IMG/VR virus record: IMGVR_UViG_3300031623_000034
Location: 1-29,025 of that record
Source of the DNA: a virus
Reading direction: 5' to 3' (one strand)
Length of the DNA stretch: 29,025 nt
Part shown: one piece after another, positions 1-20,355 of the stretch
Layout of the letters: the number at the start of each line of letters is the position of its first letter
Numbering within the stretch: the first letter of the stretch is position 1
Notes under the pieces: model-generated
Seen by the model: the letters and a program-made list of their open reading frames with translations, nothing else
Databases searched by the model: none
What the model was told of the DNA's origin: nothing
Program-made: the position numbers and the translations under genes

Positions 1-1591
1 TTGTTAAGTTAGTTGCTGTGCCACTGTTATCACTGCCTGATAATGAAATGGCTCCTGAAGCACTTCCGTTTACGTATGCTGTTAATGTACCAGCCGCGGC
101 GTTGTATGCCCAAGTTGATTGTGATGCGGTTCTAACTGGATCAACAGTTGTAACTCTGTTTACAGCATTTCCAGCCGCATAAGTTGGAGAACCTGAAACG
201 TTTTCAGTAAATCCAGAACAAAGTTTTGGACTTGTTCCTACAACGGCGTTCATTGCAATTGTTTTATCACCTATATCATCTGGTGCCGCAGGAACATCAT
301 CATAAACTTTTAATGATATTGATCCTGTTATAGGTAAAAGTGCTGGATTACAAGTTGAGTGAGTAGTTAATGAAAGTGTTAATGTATCTCGGCCGGTACT
401 ACTATTTGTACCTGCTCCCCAGGCATGGGATAATCTTGTTCCACTTACACCACCTGACGCACTATCGTTTGCAATAGCAGTAGCACTAGAACCATCGCCC
501 CAAGCCATTGAGTATACCACTGTGGCCCCAGATGTATTTGTTGAAGTATTTCTTAAGTATCTTGTTCCGCCTTCTACTGCCCATAAATTATTTCCTGTTA
601 ATGCAGAGCCTCCAGAACTTGCCGCATAGAATTCAAAATTAACAACTGGTGTTGATGTATAAACTGTTACTTGTAAATTTGTCATTGAGTCACCGGAATT
701 TGCAAAGGATCCTGAAGAATCTGTTACTGCACTAAGGTTATATGCTTTTACTGTTATTGTATAAGGTGTACCAGAATTTTCATCATAGTCATGGGTTGGA
801 TTTGTAGCAGTCTCGGTTGTAGTTGTGCCGTCACCCCAATTAACTTCATACCTGTTAGCACCTCCACCAACTGCTGTGATGGCTAAAGTTACTGTCATTC
901 CTAATGACCCTGCCGCTGGAGTTCTTGTATAAGTTACACTTTTTACATATTGACTTAATCTAATATTTTCTTGTACTTCATTTAAATCATCAATTGCATC
1001 TGTAACTGTGCCACCGGTATTAAGTGTATATGATCCATCGCTAACTGTAGAATCAGTTGGAGTTCCTAATGTTAAACCACTACCTGAAGATACTACTGAT
1101 ATACTGCTAACTTGGTCGTCAACATATTTTTTAGTTGATGCATCAGAATCAGCCGCTGGTTCACCAATTTGTAATTTTGCTAGTGTTGATGCAAAATCAT
1201 CGGTTGTAGAACCATCAGCTGTTGTTGTTCCAAATTTAAATTTGTCTATAGATTCGTCCCAATACATTACTGCATTATTGCCAGCCGCACCTCTTTGAAT
1301 CATTACTCCTGCATTATGCCCAATTGAGCCCGAACTGTTTAAGACAATCATGTTGTCTTCTATAGATAAATTTTGTGAGTCTACTGTGGTTGTTGTACCT
1401 GTAACTGTAAGGTCACCAGAAATTCTTGTATTACCAGCAATATCTAATTGAAAATTGCCAGGGGTAGCTGTACCCACACCAACCCTACCGTTAGCTACAT
1501 CTACTACTAATAAATTTGTATTAAATGCTAGATCCGTGGAACGGATAAGATTAGATTCTAATAATTCGCCTGCTATCTTTGTTATTGCCAT
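1..1591 (-). CDS. Virion fibre/surface protein with PKD-like domains (C-terminus beyond left edge)
   Basis: The minus-strand frame is open from the ATG at 1591 to the window edge (530 codons, no stop), so it is a partial gene. Residues 1-210 are of the type common in T4-like marine phage fibres: 'GRVGVGTATPG' near residue 35, then a beta-rich stretch 'RISGDLTVTG' near 56 that is also found in the 3291-4127 gene. Two PKD-like repeats follow. Each has the hallmark WGDG (residues 252-255 and 364-367), and the first continues into 'HDYDENSGTPYTITVKAYN'. PKD and Ig-like folds on phage virions usually mediate weak binding to carbohydrate or cell surface. A likely role is a tail fibre or whisker component. 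The start is supported by a late-type promoter just upstream. The fibre class is well supported, the exact position in the virion is not. Confidence 0.75.
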   Translation of the reverse strand, partial: MAITKIAGELLESNLIRSTDLAFNTNLLVVDVANGRVGVGTATPGNFQLDIAGNTRISGDLTVTGTTTTVDSQNLSIEDNMIVLNSSGSIGHNAGVMIQRGAAGNNAVMYWDESIDKFKFGTTTADGSTTDDFASTLAKLQIGEPAADSDASTKKYVDDQVSSISVVSSGSGLTLGTPTDSTVSDGSYTLNTGGTVTDAIDDLNEVQENIRLSQYVKSVTYTRTPAAGSLGMTVTLAITAVGGGANRYEVNWGDGTTTTETATNPTHDYDENSGTPYTITVKAYNLSAVTDSSGSFANSGDSMTNLQVTVYTSTPVVNFEFYAASSGGSALTGNNLWAVEGGTRYLRNTSTNTSGATVVYSMAWGDGSSATAIANDSASGGVSGTRLSHAWGAGTNSSTGRDTLTLSLTTHSTCNPALLPITGSISLKVYDDVPAAPDDIGDKTIAMNAVVGTSPKLCSGFTENVSGSPTYAAGNAVNRVTTVDPVRTASQSTWAYNAAAGTLTAYVNGSASGAISLSGSDNSGTATNLT

Positions 1592-4200: not shown

Positions 4201-4650
4201 TTATCTAACGTTTATTGAACCTACGCCTGCTCCTGCTTGAGCTTCGTCAGTACCTTCAGCACCTAGTGTATAAGTGCAAAAACCAGCAGTTCCTGCCGCT
4301 GTTACATAGTGTATAGTTCTGTTATAGAACTTTTCTACGTATGCTACTGTTGAGTCGTTTAGGATAACTTGAACACAGAACTCACCAAGTGAGCTCGCGT
4401 TATCATTAGCTAATGATCCTGGTGCAACGGCTTTCAATTGGTACACAGCTTCACTCGAATCTTCTAATTGTATCTTAAATTTATTAGAACTTCTTTGTGA
4501 TACTACGTAAGCAACTGTTGAATCAACTTTTGCTCCACCGTACGGTCTATAAGCTGTTACGGCTATATTTCCCGCCAAGCTAGATTGATGTTCTGTACCC
4601 TGGTGATATCCAGTGCCAGACATATTGTTTTTGTTGAGTGGTCTTCCCAT
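4201..4650 (-). CDS. Conserved virion structural protein ('MGRPLNK' type)
   Basis: A 149-residue protein. The N-terminus 'MGRPLNKNNMSG' is characteristic of a small structural protein found in T4-like marine phages, often highly expressed. The remainder is beta-rich ('KFKIQLEDSSEAVYQLKAV', 'TAAGTAGFCTYTLGAEGTDE'). It is transcribed alone, with its own late promoter at 4751-4760, a structured 83-nt leader, a clear AGGAG ribosome site 7 nt before the ATG and a strong terminator. That arrangement suggests strong, individually controlled late expression. Its place in the particle is not known to me. Confidence 0.6.
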   Translation of the reverse strand: MGRPLNKNNMSGTGYHQGTEHQSSLAGNIAVTAYRPYGGAKVDSTVAYVVSQRSSNKFKIQLEDSSEAVYQLKAVAPGSLANDNASSLGEFCVQVILNDSTVAYVEKFYNRTIHYVTAAGTAGFCTYTLGAEGTDEAQAGAGVGSINVR

Positions 4651-4662
4651 TTTTTTTCTCCT

Positions 4663-4745
4663 AGTTCAGAGCCTAATGCGAGTTCTACTCGCTACGCGGT
4701 TAATTCCGCATAAGTCTCTACTTGTTGTAGAGCTCTGTTTGAACT
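4663..4745 (-). ncRNA. Cloverleaf-like structured 5' leader of the 4201-4650 mRNA
   Basis: Three hairpins in tandem: gcgag/ctcgc (4678-4682 with 4688-4692), gcgg/ccgc (4696-4699 with 4706-4709) and ctctac/gtagag (4716-4721 with 4727-4732). They are enclosed by a closing stem: agttca (4663-4668) pairs with tgaact (4740-4745), and gag/ctc pairs inside it, leaving a small bulge. The result is a four-way junction. The predicted late transcription start is 4745, the first base of the closing stem. The AGGAG ribosome site (4658-4662) follows the structure directly. The arms lack tRNA signatures, so it is not a tRNA. A role in mRNA stability or translation control is inferred. Confidence 0.6.
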
Positions 4746-12243: not shown

Positions 12244-12870
12244 CTATATTTTTATTTGTAGGTTAAATTTAGCTAAAAATTCCTCGGTTGTGATGTGTTT
12301 TATATTGTCGTGCCAGGCAATGTCTTTGGGTTTAAACCCGCCGTTATGTGTTATACGGATGAAATTAATTTTTTTGAAATCTTGTAGGCACCTCTTCGTT
12401 TGATTCATCCAGTTGCCAGAAAAAGTAGCCTCATCTTTACTCTTTTTATAGTTACGACTGTTTTTAAAGAGATTATTAAACCGCGATGTTTGGGGAACTT
12501 TATCATCTTTATGTCCTTGATAGTCAAACCCTAATATATAAATTTCAGAATGTTTACGTTCACAAGCCATTCTTAATGCTGTTGGTCCAGAACTCCACCC
12601 TAAACTTGGTTGAAACCATTTACAATTATCTAATATTTTTGGATGTTTGTTATATTGTGCATTAAAGTTTGTCCATACTTGATTATGTTTCATATAATCA
12701 GACTCTGCTATTTCAATTAACATTTTAGGATCTACAGCAACTAAAAAATCAGGACGATCAGTACGATAAACAGCATTACAGGCAAATACTGTGCCGTGTT
12801 TTTTTAAATCTTCTATGTGAATTCCTTTTCGGGATTCGCCATTCCCTAATACAAATGCTATGTCACTCAT
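12244..12870 (-). CDS. Conserved Rossmann-like protein of T4-like marine phages
   Basis: A 208-residue protein. 'IAFVLGNGESRKGIHIEDLK' at the N-terminus is a glycine-rich nucleotide-binding-like turn, followed by 'GTVFACNAVYRTDRPDFLVA' and 'VDPKM'. 'PSLGWSSGPTALRMACERKH' and 'EIYILGFDYQGHKDD' are further conserved-looking motifs. The pattern recalls the DUF115/MptE-like or sialyltransferase-like Rossmann folds, but I cannot assign a reaction. It sits inside the head operon between the small gp67-like gene and the core protein gene. That position may simply be an insertion of an auxiliary gene, or it may indicate a role in virion modification. Confidence 0.5.
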   Translation of the reverse strand: MSDIAFVLGNGESRKGIHIEDLKKHGTVFACNAVYRTDRPDFLVAVDPKMLIEIAESDYMKHNQVWTNFNAQYNKHPKILDNCKWFQPSLGWSSGPTALRMACERKHSEIYILGFDYQGHKDDKVPQTSRFNNLFKNSRNYKKSKDEATFSGNWMNQTKRCLQDFKKINFIRITHNGGFKPKDIAWHDNIKHITTEEFLAKFNLQIKI

Positions 12871-12912
12871 AATTTATATTAATTATTATGTTTTACTAAA
12901 CGGTGTATTAAA

Positions 12913-13158
12913 TTAGATTGCTAAATCGTCCATTTCTGGCGCTGGTTGTCCATACATTTTTTGAACAAATACCGCTTCTTCTTTTTGTCTAGCATCATGT
13001 TCTTCAGATGCTAATCTCATTGAATTGATTTCGCCAAGTGAAAGGCGTGTTTTTCTAGTGTCATCTTTATCTAGTATAGAAATATCGTTTTCAGGTTCAT
13101 ATGTTTTATCATGTTCAAACCCGTCTGCTGTATGTGTAAAGAATTCCAATAGTTTCAT
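12913..13158 (-). CDS. Small prohead-region protein (gp67 position)
   Basis: An 81-residue charged protein directly after the portal gene: 'MKLLEFFTHTADGFEHDKTY', then a helical 'KTRLSLGEINSMRLASEEHD' and 'ARQKEEAVFVQKMYGQPAPE'. T4 has gp67 (80 residues, prohead core) at this place, and other T4-like marine phages have a similar small gene between 20 and 21. Homology to gp67 is positional inference. The ATG lies 5 nt after a TTAAATA late-type element just after the gp20 stop, so it may have its own leaderless transcript besides readthrough. Confidence 0.55.
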   Translation of the reverse strand: MKLLEFFTHTADGFEHDKTYEPENDISILDKDDTRKTRLSLGEINSMRLASEEHDARQKEEAVFVQKMYGQPAPEMDDLAI

Positions 13159-13163
13159 AACAG

Positions 13164-13170
13164 TATTTAA
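13164..13170 (-). promoter_or_regulatory. Late-type promoter TTAAATA inside the head operon
   Basis: It begins 2 bases after the gp20 stop codon and ends 5 nt before the ATG at 13158, so predicted +1 is the start codon. Confidence 0.45.
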
Positions 13171-13172
13171 TC

Positions 13173-14906
13173 CTAAGCTGGTGTTGGCGGTGCACCGCCT
13201 CCAGGTATAGTACCTCCGCCACCTGGTGTAGTTCCTGGTGCTCCTGGCCCTGGTTGCCCTGGTTCTGGAGCTTCTGGCTCTGCTGTTGGTTCTTCAAATT
13301 GGTCTAAATCTGAAGTAATGTTTGATTGTGATATCCCGCCTGCTCGTAATTGTGTTGCTTTGCTTTGTTTTTTCTTAGGAATATTATTTTCTTCTGCCCA
13401 AAGATCAGCATTTCTTGTCATTTCTTCTTCAGTTAAACCAAGATATCTCTTTAATACAAATCTTTTTGCCATATATGGTAGATCAGCAAGTTGTGAAAAT
13501 GTTGATACTCGTGCCTGATCCATTTCAGTTTGTCTATATTGTGCAAAGTTTTGTGGTGGATTAAGTTTAATTTCAAACATTGTATTATCAATGTTGTAAC
13601 CTTTACTATGAATCCATAATTTAAATTCTTCGTCGAATACGTTTGCTATCATACTTTGTAATCTCATACAGTATTTGTTAAATCTTAATTCTTGTATGTA
13701 CGCAGTACCAACTCTACCGTCATTATATGATTGTTGTCCATCATCAGGACCTGTTGGCAAATATGAACTTGGTATTTTTAATCCTCTAAACAATTTGTTT
13801 GTAAAGAATTTAAGATCATCTATTTCACCTAGGTTAGTACCACCCGGTAGTGTATCAACTTTAGATCCTCTTCCTTCTGCTGTTTGCGGAAAGAAATAAT
13901 CCTCATTAATTGACATAGGATTATATGTAGCATCAACATAGTTGACACCACCTGATGTGCTTGGAATTCTTCTTTGATTAATTTCGTTTTTAACTCTCTC
14001 AACGAATTGCATCGCCAAGTGTGTTGGCATATTACCTACGTCGATATAAAATACTCTTCTTTCAGGTGCTCTTTGAACCCTGTAAATGATAATTGCATCT
14101 TCTAATAATTCTTTTTGTTTGTAAACTTTGAAAACTTGTTCTAATATTGATTGTCCAAAAGGAAATAAGTTGTCTAAACCATCTGACATACTTAAATGAA
14201 TAACGTGTTCAGCATTAACGTTGTACGCATTCATAGTTTTATAAAAACGTCCACCAGATGCTCCAGAAAATCCTGACATATTTGCTTGATTTCCTGCGTT
14301 TGCATAACTTGATCCATATGCCGCAGTACCACCACCAGTTGTTCCACCACCACCATAAGTTTGATTTGGTGTTATTTGTGTTGCACTTAATCTTTGTAAG
14401 TTTGGATTAATATCTCTTATAACATATTGTTCAGGTTTTTTACCTTCTGATTCATTAACAACTATTCTGTCAACTTTTGCATTGTCAATATACAACCATT
14501 TTTGTGTTTCGGGATCTCGTACAAAAAAACAGTCACCATATTTTAATGCATTTCTGATAATTCTAAAAACTCTTTTTGAAAATTTGTTTGCTTTTGTCCA
14601 TTGTTGAAGTGCTTTCTTTAAAAGTTTAACTTCATGGTCTGTTGTTTCATCTTTAAAAACTAGATCAAACGGAGTTTCATTTTCTTTATTATGTTGTGAA
14701 CAAAATTCTGCTAAAATATCTAGTGCCGCATTAATTTCACTGTCTGAATCCATTTGGTCATATTGAAAATATCTTTGAATTCTGTTTGGATGTCCGGTAT
14801 AAACATCAGGCAAATAAGATGAATAGTTTCTTTTTGCGAAATTAGGAACTTTTTCTCCTGAGATAGGAGACAAGTTTGCGTCTTTAAAGTATTTTTTCCA
14901 AGCCAT
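13173..14906 (-). CDS. 20: Portal vertex protein gp20
   Basis: A 577-residue homologue of the T4 portal (T4 gp20 is 524). Family segments include 'YFQYDQMDSDSEINAALDIL' (about 46-65), 'LEDAIIIYRVQRAPERRVFY' then 'IDVGNMP' near 270-295, and 'DLKFFTNKLFRGLKIPSSYL'. It forms the dodecameric DNA channel at one vertex and nucleates prohead assembly. Two low-complexity parts are unusual: a Gly/Ser/Ala-rich insertion at residues 183-220 and a Pro/Gly-rich tail of about 45 residues ending 'GGGTIPGGGAPPTPA'. It starts 8 bases after the tape measure stop, which implies co-transcription. No clear Shine-Dalgarno site is present. Confidence 0.95.
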   Translation of the reverse strand: MAWKKYFKDANLSPISGEKVPNFAKRNYSSYLPDVYTGHPNRIQRYFQYDQMDSDSEINAALDILAEFCSQHNKENETPFDLVFKDETTDHEVKLLKKALQQWTKANKFSKRVFRIIRNALKYGDCFFVRDPETQKWLYIDNAKVDRIVVNESEGKKPEQYVIRDINPNLQRLSATQITPNQTYGGGGTTGGGTAAYGSSYANAGNQANMSGFSGASGGRFYKTMNAYNVNAEHVIHLSMSDGLDNLFPFGQSILEQVFKVYKQKELLEDAIIIYRVQRAPERRVFYIDVGNMPTHLAMQFVERVKNEINQRRIPSTSGGVNYVDATYNPMSINEDYFFPQTAEGRGSKVDTLPGGTNLGEIDDLKFFTNKLFRGLKIPSSYLPTGPDDGQQSYNDGRVGTAYIQELRFNKYCMRLQSMIANVFDEEFKLWIHSKGYNIDNTMFEIKLNPPQNFAQYRQTEMDQARVSTFSQLADLPYMAKRFVLKRYLGLTEEEMTRNADLWAEENNIPKKKQSKATQLRAGGISQSNITSDLDQFEEPTAEPEAPEPGQPGPGAPGTTPGGGGTIPGGGAPPTPA

Positions 14907-18678: not shown

Positions 18679-19485
18679 TTAAGTACGAGGAAGAAGTGAT
18701 GGGATCTTAGCAACATCCGTTAAAGAGTTAACCCTAGAATCACTTCTGCATAATTGTTGATATAGTTTTTTAGATTTAGACCATTTAGTTCCAGTCCACC
18801 ATTCAAAGCCTATCCATTTACTCCTATACATTGAAGAAGCTTCGTATCCAGAACCCATATAAAAGTATGCGGCCTTGTGTTCTTTAGCCCATTGTAGTTC
18901 TATATCTAAAGTAAGTTGGGATATTGGATCAACGTTACAGTGTATTACAGATTGGTATCCGGCCCAAAATATATTATCTCTGTTAAAATCGTCATCATCG
19001 TCATCTCCAAGTTGTCTTGTATAACCACCAAACCCTCCGACGTCTTCTTGGTAATGATATTTTTTAAGTTTTGTAAACGCAATAATTTTATCAGGCGTAT
19101 CTGTATAAAAGATAAGAAAAGAATCTCGTCCATGATAATGATTAAATGGATTATCTATTGTAATTTTTTTTCGTTTCATGAAATCATGGTATATTTTAGG
19201 TAGTCCTAGTAGTTTAACCATTTCATTGGCTTCAATTTCTTTTACTTTTAATTGTTTACCATTAAGTTTATGTGATTTAAAACGTGGAATGTATTTGTCA
19301 AGATCAATACGAGTAGAACGAGCTTGGTAAAATATTTCTTTTCCTTTATAAGGATTATCTGATGCTAGCCACCCGTCTTCGATTGCCTCGTTTTCTTCTT
19401 CTTCCATTACTATTGCTAAAGGAGAACATATAACTAAATCTTGATGTTTTTGTTTGCCATGAATATGGTCAAAAATTACTTTCAT
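18679..19485 (-). CDS. GNAT-fold protein resembling the C-terminal domain of arginyl/leucyl-tRNA-protein transferases
   Basis: A 268-residue protein. 'HGKQKHQDLVICSPLAIVM' and 'EIFYQARSTRIDLDKYIPRF' form the N-terminal part. The C-terminal part 'DPISQLTLDIELQWAKEHKA' followed by 'AYFYMGSGYEASSMYRSKW' then 'GFEWWTGTKW' has the layout of the transferase GNAT domain (ATE/Bpt), where a '(Y/F)LG(Y/W)W...M.YK..F.P.E' block binds the substrate. Similar proteins occur in T4-like marine phages. If active it would add an amino acid to protein N-termini, tagging host proteins, but this is a remote likeness. The ATG is at +2 of the predicted late transcript. Confidence 0.45.
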   Translation of the reverse strand: MKVIFDHIHGKQKHQDLVICSPLAIVMEEEENEAIEDGWLASDNPYKGKEIFYQARSTRIDLDKYIPRFKSHKLNGKQLKVKEIEANEMVKLLGLPKIYHDFMKRKKITIDNPFNHYHGRDSFLIFYTDTPDKIIAFTKLKKYHYQEDVGGFGGYTRQLGDDDDDDFNRDNIFWAGYQSVIHCNVDPISQLTLDIELQWAKEHKAAYFYMGSGYEASSMYRSKWIGFEWWTGTKWSKSKKLYQQLCRSDSRVNSLTDVAKIPSLLPRT

Positions 19486-19491
19486 TTTTAG

Positions 19492-19499
19492 TATTTACA
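19492..19499 (-). promoter_or_regulatory. Late-type promoter TGTAAATA for the 18679-19485 gene
   Basis: TAAATA core 6 nt before the ATG at 19485, immediately after a 7-bp hairpin at 19501-19518. Confidence 0.5.
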
Positions 19500-19500
19500 A

Positions 19501-19541
19501 AGATGGCTCTAGCCATCTAAACTTTCGCTACGCTCAGTTTA
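19501..19541 (-). other. Pair of hairpins at the end of the non-coding region
   Basis: AGATGGC/GCCATCT (19501-19507 with 19512-19518, 4-nt loop) and TAAACT/AGTTTA (19518-19523 with 19536-19541). They lie between the U-rich end of the candidate RNA and the next late promoter. The first has only a short T run after it on the minus strand (TTTG), so it is a weak second terminator or part of a longer form of the RNA. Confidence 0.5.
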
Positions 19542-19555
19542 TTTTAAATTACATT

Positions 19556-19888
19556 CTAAAAAATAAACGCAATATGCGTCCTATGTGCTAGATGTTAGTC
19601 ATAGTTCTGCTATTTCTAGCAGAACGACTTACCCATGTGCTGAGTTTATAGTCATTATATATTGCTGTCGTAACCGGGCGGTTGTGCTGTACCCGTTAGC
19701 TTGTTCTATCCAACGCGAGTTTGTGTAATCTTTATACAATAATCTTACACAAACTTGGGGGTGCTTTTTCTCAGAGCCCCATCATTTGCCTTTCCTACAA
19801 GCAAGATCTGATCGCAATTGCGACCTCAATGCTGTTTTATATATAAAGTAGATATGATTTGCCTAGTGGAAGGATGCTGTTGCCCTTC
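19556..19888 (-). ncRNA. Candidate structured non-coding RNA of about 330 nt
   Basis: The 460 bases between 19486 and 19947 hold no credible ORF but many stems. In transcript order they are: AGTG-AAGG with CCTT-CACT (19865-19891); a 12-nt palindrome TCGCAATTGCGA (19812-19823); a GGGGCT/AGCaCCC hairpin (about 19757-19780); a perfect 11-bp stem 19718-19728 with 19745-19755; TAAC-GGG with CCC-GTTA (19671-19698); a perfect 9-bp stem 19604-19612 with 19617-19625 whose minus-strand loop is GAAA, extended by AGTC/GACT; and ACGCA/TGCGT (19567-19579), followed by TTTATTTTTT. A sigma70-type promoter precedes it. The GNRA loop, promoter and terminator all agree on the minus strand. Family unknown; ends are estimates. 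Confidence 0.6.
19558..19579 (-). terminator. Terminator-like end of the candidate RNA
   Basis: A 5-bp stem ACGCA/TGCGT with a 3-nt loop, followed on the minus strand by a T-rich run (19566-19558). Confidence 0.5.
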
Positions 19889-19893
19889 ACTTA

Positions 19894-19922
19894 TATATAA
19901 CATAGAATAAAATTATAGTCAA
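19894..19922 (-). promoter_or_regulatory. Sigma70-type promoter TTGACT-17-TATATA for the candidate RNA
   Basis: On the minus strand TTGACT (19922-19917), a 17-nt spacer, then TATATA (19899-19894). Predicted start near 19887. This is a host-type early promoter, unlike the late TAAATA type in front of protein genes. TTATATATAA occurs again at 19837-19846. Confidence 0.55.
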
Positions 19923-19932
19923 CAGAATTGAG

Positions 19933-19940
19933 TTTAAATA
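19933..19940 (+). promoter_or_regulatory. Late-type promoter TTTAAATA for the GIY-YIG gene
   Basis: TAAATA core 7 nt before the ATG at 19948, so the ATG is at +3. Confidence 0.45.
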
Positions 19941-19947
19941 TTGAAAT

Positions 19948-20355
19948 ATGTGGTTTTATGAGAATAAAAAAGTAAACGAACTACCAGAAAGTTGTGTTGG
20001 GTTTGTGTATCAAATAACAAATGCAATCAACGGTAGGATGTATATAGGTAAAAAGTTAGCAAAGTTTAAAAGATCTAGAGCACCACTTAAAGGTAGAAGA
20101 AATAAGCGTAGATACAAAGTAGAAAGTGATTGGCAAGACTATTACGGATCTAGCGACGACCTAACAATAGATATCAAAAGACTTGGTGCAGAAAACTTTA
20201 AAAGAGAAATACTCTTTTATTGTAAATCAAAATCGGAATTATCCTATGTAGAAGCACGAGAGCAGTTTGCTCGTAAAGTGTTAGAATCAAATCAATACTA
20301 CAACGGACATATTAGAGTGCGTGTTCATGGAAAAGGTATTTTAAAATTAACTTAA
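19948..20355 (+). CDS. GIY-YIG family endonuclease
   Basis: A 135-residue protein. The catalytic module is 'CVGFVYQITNAINGRMYIGK' (GIY as Phe-Val-Tyr 19-21, YIG as 32-34), followed by a basic stretch 'KRSRAPLKGRRNKRRYKVES', 'DWQDYYGSSDDL' and 'NFKREILFYCKSKSELSYVE' with the candidate metal-binding Glu102, ending 'YYNGHIRVRVHG' with Asn119. This is a free-standing nuclease of the Seg-like type carried by T4-like phages. It may act in recombination, DNA processing or homing. It is divergent from the structured RNA and has a TAA-ATG junction with the next gene. Confidence 0.8.
   Translation: MWFYENKKVNELPESCVGFVYQITNAINGRMYIGKKLAKFKRSRAPLKGRRNKRRYKVESDWQDYYGSSDDLTIDIKRLGAENFKREILFYCKSKSELSYVEAREQFARKVLESNQYYNGHIRVRVHGKGILKLT

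Follow-up and report, generated by a model that had tools for sequence, protein, structure and literature searches.

A predicted double-pseudoknot RNA gene of jumbo-like, T4-related phages with 2 short motifs that stay identical while both change

We have analysed a window of 29,025 nt of viral DNA (positions 1 to 29,025 of IMG/VR record IMGVR_UViG_3300031623_000034), and we find that the minus strand of positions 19499–19922 is predicted to encode a structured RNA of about 390 nt, and not a protein. As judged from comparison of homologous loci, the element is a stand-alone RNA gene of jumbo-like phages related to T4. That a real, selected RNA is specified by the minus strand we regard as almost certain. 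As to what the RNA does, the best explanation, to which we give about an even chance, is that it would act as a scaffold bearing 2 matched motifs for one external partner, a nucleic acid being likelier. An earlier note, made by inspection of the window, had proposed a structured non-coding RNA with its own promoter and terminator at this place, and the homologue comparison described below supports that proposal.

The RNA is located in a gene-free gap of 462 nt (19486–19947), as defined by the flanking gene calls, between the end of a minus-strand gene at 19485 and the start of a plus-strand gene at 19948; the earlier figure of about 460 bases was therefore accurate. Protein coding within the gap was rejected, since a stop-free frame is not conserved among the homologues. 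The putative promoter of the RNA, which consists of TTGACT at 19917–19922 and TATATA at 19894–19899 (minus strand) with a 17-nt spacer, is present with the sequence and spacing that the earlier note gave, and may be early, as proposed there. The site was not listed when the window by itself was put through a simple promoter scan. Among 74 homologues, 33 have the pattern TTGACN-15..19-TAWHAH at an almost constant offset, as compared with 0.9 expected by shuffling and 2 on the opposite strand. We placed the transcript start from the position of this promoter. At the other end, a terminator-like hairpin with a U-rich tract occupies 19558–19581 on the minus strand, and the terminator scan located it at 19565–19581 (1 found, 0.2 expected), in agreement with the hairpin and U-rich tract noted previously. 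The RNA had been drawn as extending over 19556–19888. The predicted RNA covers that interval, but it may reach a second conserved element at 19499–19540 on the same strand, composed of a GAGCGUAGCGAA hairpin and an AGAUGGC..GCCAUCU terminator-like hairpin; this 3' terminator element is retained in 69 of 74 homologues.

Folding of the minus strand, relative to shuffled sequence, gave z scores of -3.5 for 19556–19888 and -3.9 for 19500–19920. The plus strand folded nearly as well (z -3.8), so that the strand cannot be chosen on the energy of folding. Across the homologues, we counted 307 G-U pairs and 46 A-C pairs, a nearly seven-fold excess which places the RNA on the minus strand, as had been surmised from the strand cues in the window. 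When 45 sequences were aligned with MAFFT, double compensatory changes were seen at 35 of the 43 pairs (covariation 0.567, against 0.212 when shuffled), and in a set of 76 diverse sequences the same was true of 43 of 48 pairs, 2 pseudoknots included (0.651, against 0.201 shuffled and at most 0.116 slid); because the structure was chosen from covariation in these same alignments, such counts are support for it and not an independent test. The 76-sequence alignment was fitted to a covariance model, R1, from which the pseudoknots are absent. Conserved pairing at homologous loci, which the earlier note had named as a check on its proposal, is thus present.

Read from its 5' side, with all coordinates referring to the minus strand, the RNA begins with a variable, lineage-specific domain (19797–19890) that is outside the tested consensus structure. 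It is followed by helix A (19757–19780), which has the form GGGG...CCCC with an inner 2-bp helix and a GAAA-rich loop and is supported by compensatory changes (helices 1–2), and by helix B (19719–19754), a long stem with double changes in 10 of 10 pairs; the perfect 11-bp stem reported earlier is found here, at 19718–19755. The loop of helix B contains the 5' strand of pseudoknot 1 (19733–19738), the 3' strand of which is at 19656–19661. This pseudoknot shows double changes in 6 of 6 pairs, and is paired in 93.0% of alignment A2 and in 74.0% of the wider alignment A3. Pseudoknot 2 joins GUUGG at 19710–19714 (GUUG, 19711–19714) to ACAAC at 19681–19685 (CAAC, 19681–19684), the latter in a conserved loop; it is 97.2% paired, 3 of its 5 pairs show double changes, and it occurs in the variants GUUGU/ACAAC, GUCAU/AUGAC and GUCGU/ACGAC. 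The most conserved element of the RNA is the core hairpin CGGGUACAGCACAACCGCCCG (19675–19695), which is invariant or nearly so in alignments A1 and A2. A terminal hairpin with a covarying helix (19602–19627), within which the perfect 9-bp, GAAA-capped stem of the earlier note was located at 19604–19625, separates 2 short motifs, M1 (ACUC-AGCACAU-G, 19634–19645) and M2 (AUCU-AGCACAU-A, 19582–19593).

When the window was searched against Rfam 15 at gathering scores, the RNA matched no family; its best match was to isrK, at a chance level of 16 bits where 50 are needed. Similarly, RF01718 (gathering score 37 bits) had no match in the window, and none at E<=5 in 19450–19980. Yet 4 scanned relatives (L046, L034, L063 and L028) match RF01718 at 83–120 bits; there it makes up the 5' domain, and in each of them an R1 core match is found directly downstream (E of about 1e-11 to 1e-19). 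The earlier suggestion of a new RNA family stands for the window RNA and the core, neither of which matches an Rfam family, but not for the 5' domain of these 4 relatives; since their RNAs have a Polynucleobacter-1 (RF01718) 5' domain, one part of the wider family had been described before. The Polynucleobacter-1 model is 141 nt long, and the core, the 2 pseudoknots and the matched motif pair, the last of which is new, all lie beyond its end. The table row for Polynucleobacter-1 in Weinberg et al. 2010 (PMC2864571) gives no function, and within the open-licence literature we found no further mention of RF01718 beyond the paper that named it. By ARAGORN, the RNA is not a tRNA or tmRNA, and there is no tRNA in the window; nor does the RNA match the Rfam models for GOLLD and ROOL. 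Those 2 are large, ornate RNAs with no known function which are likewise borne by phages or prophages, and neither of them is known to have a matched motif pair. The present RNA is about half as long as GOLLD, which it resembles in that the 3' part is conserved and the 5' part varies (PMC12286853). Elsewhere in the window, at 4648–4732 on the minus strand, there is a member of a known cis-regulatory family, freshwater-2 RNA (RF02980; 78 bits, 49.9 needed).

Using the neighbouring proteins as a route, we reached IMG/VR contigs with RNA copies 65–89% identical to that of the window. A near-invariant 19-mer of the core hairpin, GGGTACMGCACAACCGCCC, is present in at least 119 viral contigs of IMG/VR and in 5 MAG contigs. 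About 40 further contigs contain more divergent homologues, a group that we call largely freshwater on the ground that some members have RF01718. Model R1 found the window copy once and matched most of 80 loci with a GIY-YIG gene, many of them without the 19-mer, and searches of whole IMG/VR records gave one convincing copy per record. A wider model, R2, had matches in only 2 of 369 bacterial genomes belonging to one class and in 1 of 297 belonging to one order, figures that include the starting MAGs; the RNA is thus near-absent from the sampled bacterial genomes. One bacterial MAG contig (L286) carries at about 1500–1800 a divergent homologue with the motif pair CUC-GGUUGAUG / UCU-GGUUGAUG, and may be phage DNA that was assigned to a bacterial bin.

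Judged by its portal protein, the window phage is close to Phosso, Atu_ph07, XaC1 and PA5oct, which are jumbo T4-like phages. Searches by blastn with the window RNA and 4 divergent homologues gave nothing credible among GenBank phages, and only R2 reached the cultured Agrobacterium phage Atu_ph07 (MF403008), which has 2 RNA paralogues on its minus strand, one at 490.1 kb and one at 383.3 kb, each in a gene-free gap and each with pseudoknots 1 and 2. The second copy accounts for only about 0.5 kb of a 2.2-kb gene-free gap (382156–384352). In the open-licence literature, neither the Atu_ph07 paper nor a 2026 jumbo-phage review mentions such an RNA. Other matches were set aside: a weak R2 match in PA5oct (NC_071039, 13108–13408) is in a gene-free gap and is without the core sequence, and we do not claim it; a match in G010 is in sequence that on inspection seems to be coding; and a pattern match in Phosso is inside a clp gene. 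The PA5oct gap itself, 912 nt (12810–13720) in the terminal repeat of this cultured Pseudomonas phage, could contain a more distant structured RNA.

The matched motifs came to light in a mutual-information ranking of every pair of columns in the marine alignment. The top-ranked columns comprised Watson-Crick pairs together with several in which the letters are always equal, and the latter proved to be 2 copies of a motif of 5–8 nt flanking the terminal hairpin. In the window, the motif is AGCACAT (minus strand, 19635–19641 and 19583–19589); elsewhere it takes the forms ACCACAG, GCCACAG, AGUACA, ACUACAA, ACAUGAUG and ACGUGAUG. M1 and M2 were equal at 5 variable columns in 72 of 72 distinct marine sequences, and on a tree built without those columns we counted 6, 4, 5, 1 and 1 parsimony changes at the respective positions and about 10 for the motif as a whole. 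The letters just upstream differ, being CUC for M1 and UCU for M2 in 69 of the 72 and CAA and UCA in the other 3. Because these adjoining letters stay different, we rejected target-site duplication and gene conversion as the cause of the identity. Divergent RNAs have the same layout, with motifs such as AGAUAAU, AGAUGAU and GGAUAAU; in this set, where segments were chosen by their CUC/UCU anchors, at least 7 of 8 letters were identical in 26 of 31 cases. By eye, the pair in copy 1 of Atu_ph07 is CUC-AUGAAU / UCU-AUGAAU, and that in copy 2 is probably CGCAU / CGCAU, which is short, is without CUC/UCU anchors and could be partly chance.

We found no pairing partner for M1 or M2 within the RNA, and consider it likely that the 2 motifs meet a common external partner. 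According to this explanation, the RNA would act in trans, its fold serving as a scaffold that displays 2 equal, single-stranded recognition elements, each of which would bind the same partner, and the sequence or specificity of the partner would shift between lineages. Whether that partner is a nucleic acid, which would be contacted by antisense, guide or decoy pairing, we put at even chances; we hold a nucleic acid to be likelier than a protein because Atu_ph07 has 2 paralogues with apparently different motif pairs, an argument that draws mainly on the short, anchorless pair of copy 2. A more specific version, which we offer tentatively, is that the RNA presents 2 identical short guides on a double-pseudoknot scaffold and is re-targeted by changes in both, so that Atu_ph07 would have 2 such RNAs with different targets.

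Alternatively, M1 and M2 may be equal sites for a sequence-specific RNA-binding protein of phage or host, in which case the RNA would be a sponge or a ribonucleoprotein scaffold and the motif classes would track changes in the protein. We think this possible, at a rather low probability. It would fit the occurrence of a longer unit, helix-GUGACUG..CAYYY-X, in 2 copies, which resembles a duplicated binding module, and also our failure to find antisense targets: complements of the motifs were not enriched in phage contigs of their own class, nor near gene starts in 9 large records. One protein would not, however, explain the apparently different motif pairs of the Atu_ph07 paralogues.

The RNA lies directly upstream of, and on the same strand as, the gene at 18679–19485, and could on that account be a cis-regulatory leader. 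Polynucleobacter-1 is marked 'y' in what appears to be the cis-regulatory column of the table in Weinberg et al. 2010 (PMC2864571). Against this, terminator elements are located between the RNA and the gene, and in many relatives the downstream gene is a different one or is oppositely oriented; we consider such a role improbable. The earlier note had described the neighbours of the RNA as a GIY-YIG nuclease and an ATE-like protein. The nuclease is confirmed (below), but Pfam and PHROG searches with the 18679–19485 product and with one relative gave no support for 'ATE-like'.

On the other side of the RNA, and divergent from it, a plus-strand gene (19948–20355) encodes a single-domain GIY-YIG nuclease of the SegE type (PF19835, E=2.5e-34). 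Many phage records label GIY-YIG relatives in PHROG phrog_447 as 'NAD synthetase', a label at odds with the GIY-YIG domain that Pfam assigns. Of 117 loci with sufficient flanking sequence, a set partly fetched by way of the GIY-YIG gene, 95 had such a gene within 600 nt of the RNA, on either strand; where the RNA sequence was the only means of retrieval, the gene was one of the 3 closest upstream in 82 of 100 loci. Its orientation varies between lineages. In a few loci (L082, L098, L106 and L092), it is replaced by a phage nuclease of the PDDEXK_15 type (PF24608, as tested with the protein of L106). Structured RNAs beside small nuclease genes are familiar from HEARO and the omega RNAs of IsrB, IscB and TnpB, and by analogy the present RNA might be a guide or cofactor of the adjacent nuclease, a role which the frequent linkage, and the filling of the slot by a PD-(D/E)xK nuclease, would suit. 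We judge this to be very unlikely. The nuclease here is GIY-YIG and is dispensable for the RNA, no mobile-element ends were seen, and there is no Rfam match to those RNAs. Atu_ph07 has 2 RNA copies and no PF19835 gene, whereas Melnitz, P-HM1 and phiM19 have GIY-YIG relatives and no RNA that our searches could detect; nuclease and RNA are about 2 kb apart in L026 and L027; and no part of the nuclease domain, which is 135 aa long, is an obvious candidate for guide binding. The partnership is thus not an obligate one. Free-standing homing endonucleases of the SegE type are known to sit beside conserved loci in T4-like phages. The neighbouring gene is a member of that group, which accounts for the neighbour and not for the RNA, and a free-standing homing gene beside a conserved RNA gene would be the simpler account of the linkage. 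Several loci (L013, L014, L087, L185 and others) have variable cargo genes between gp46 and the RNA, radical-SAM-like and amidinotransferase-like by eye, which suggests an insertion hot spot. Finally, a DNA-level element, such as a replication origin or recombination site with the repeats as iterons, would agree with the short matched direct repeats and with a place near gp46 that is conserved in many relatives, but we give it hardly any weight in view of the covarying pseudoknots and of the G-U excess, which is as expected for a selected RNA of the minus strand.

In summary, the little-studied RF01718 now belongs to a large family of phage-borne RNAs with a tested structure, members of which occur in marine and freshwater contigs and also in a cultured phage of Agrobacterium. 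Our favoured explanation, that of a scaffold RNA with 2 matched motifs, derives from a rare evolutionary signature, in which 2 short motif copies are kept identical while both change. This signature makes the recognition target of the RNA directly testable, and Atu_ph07, with its 2 paralogues, would be a workable system.
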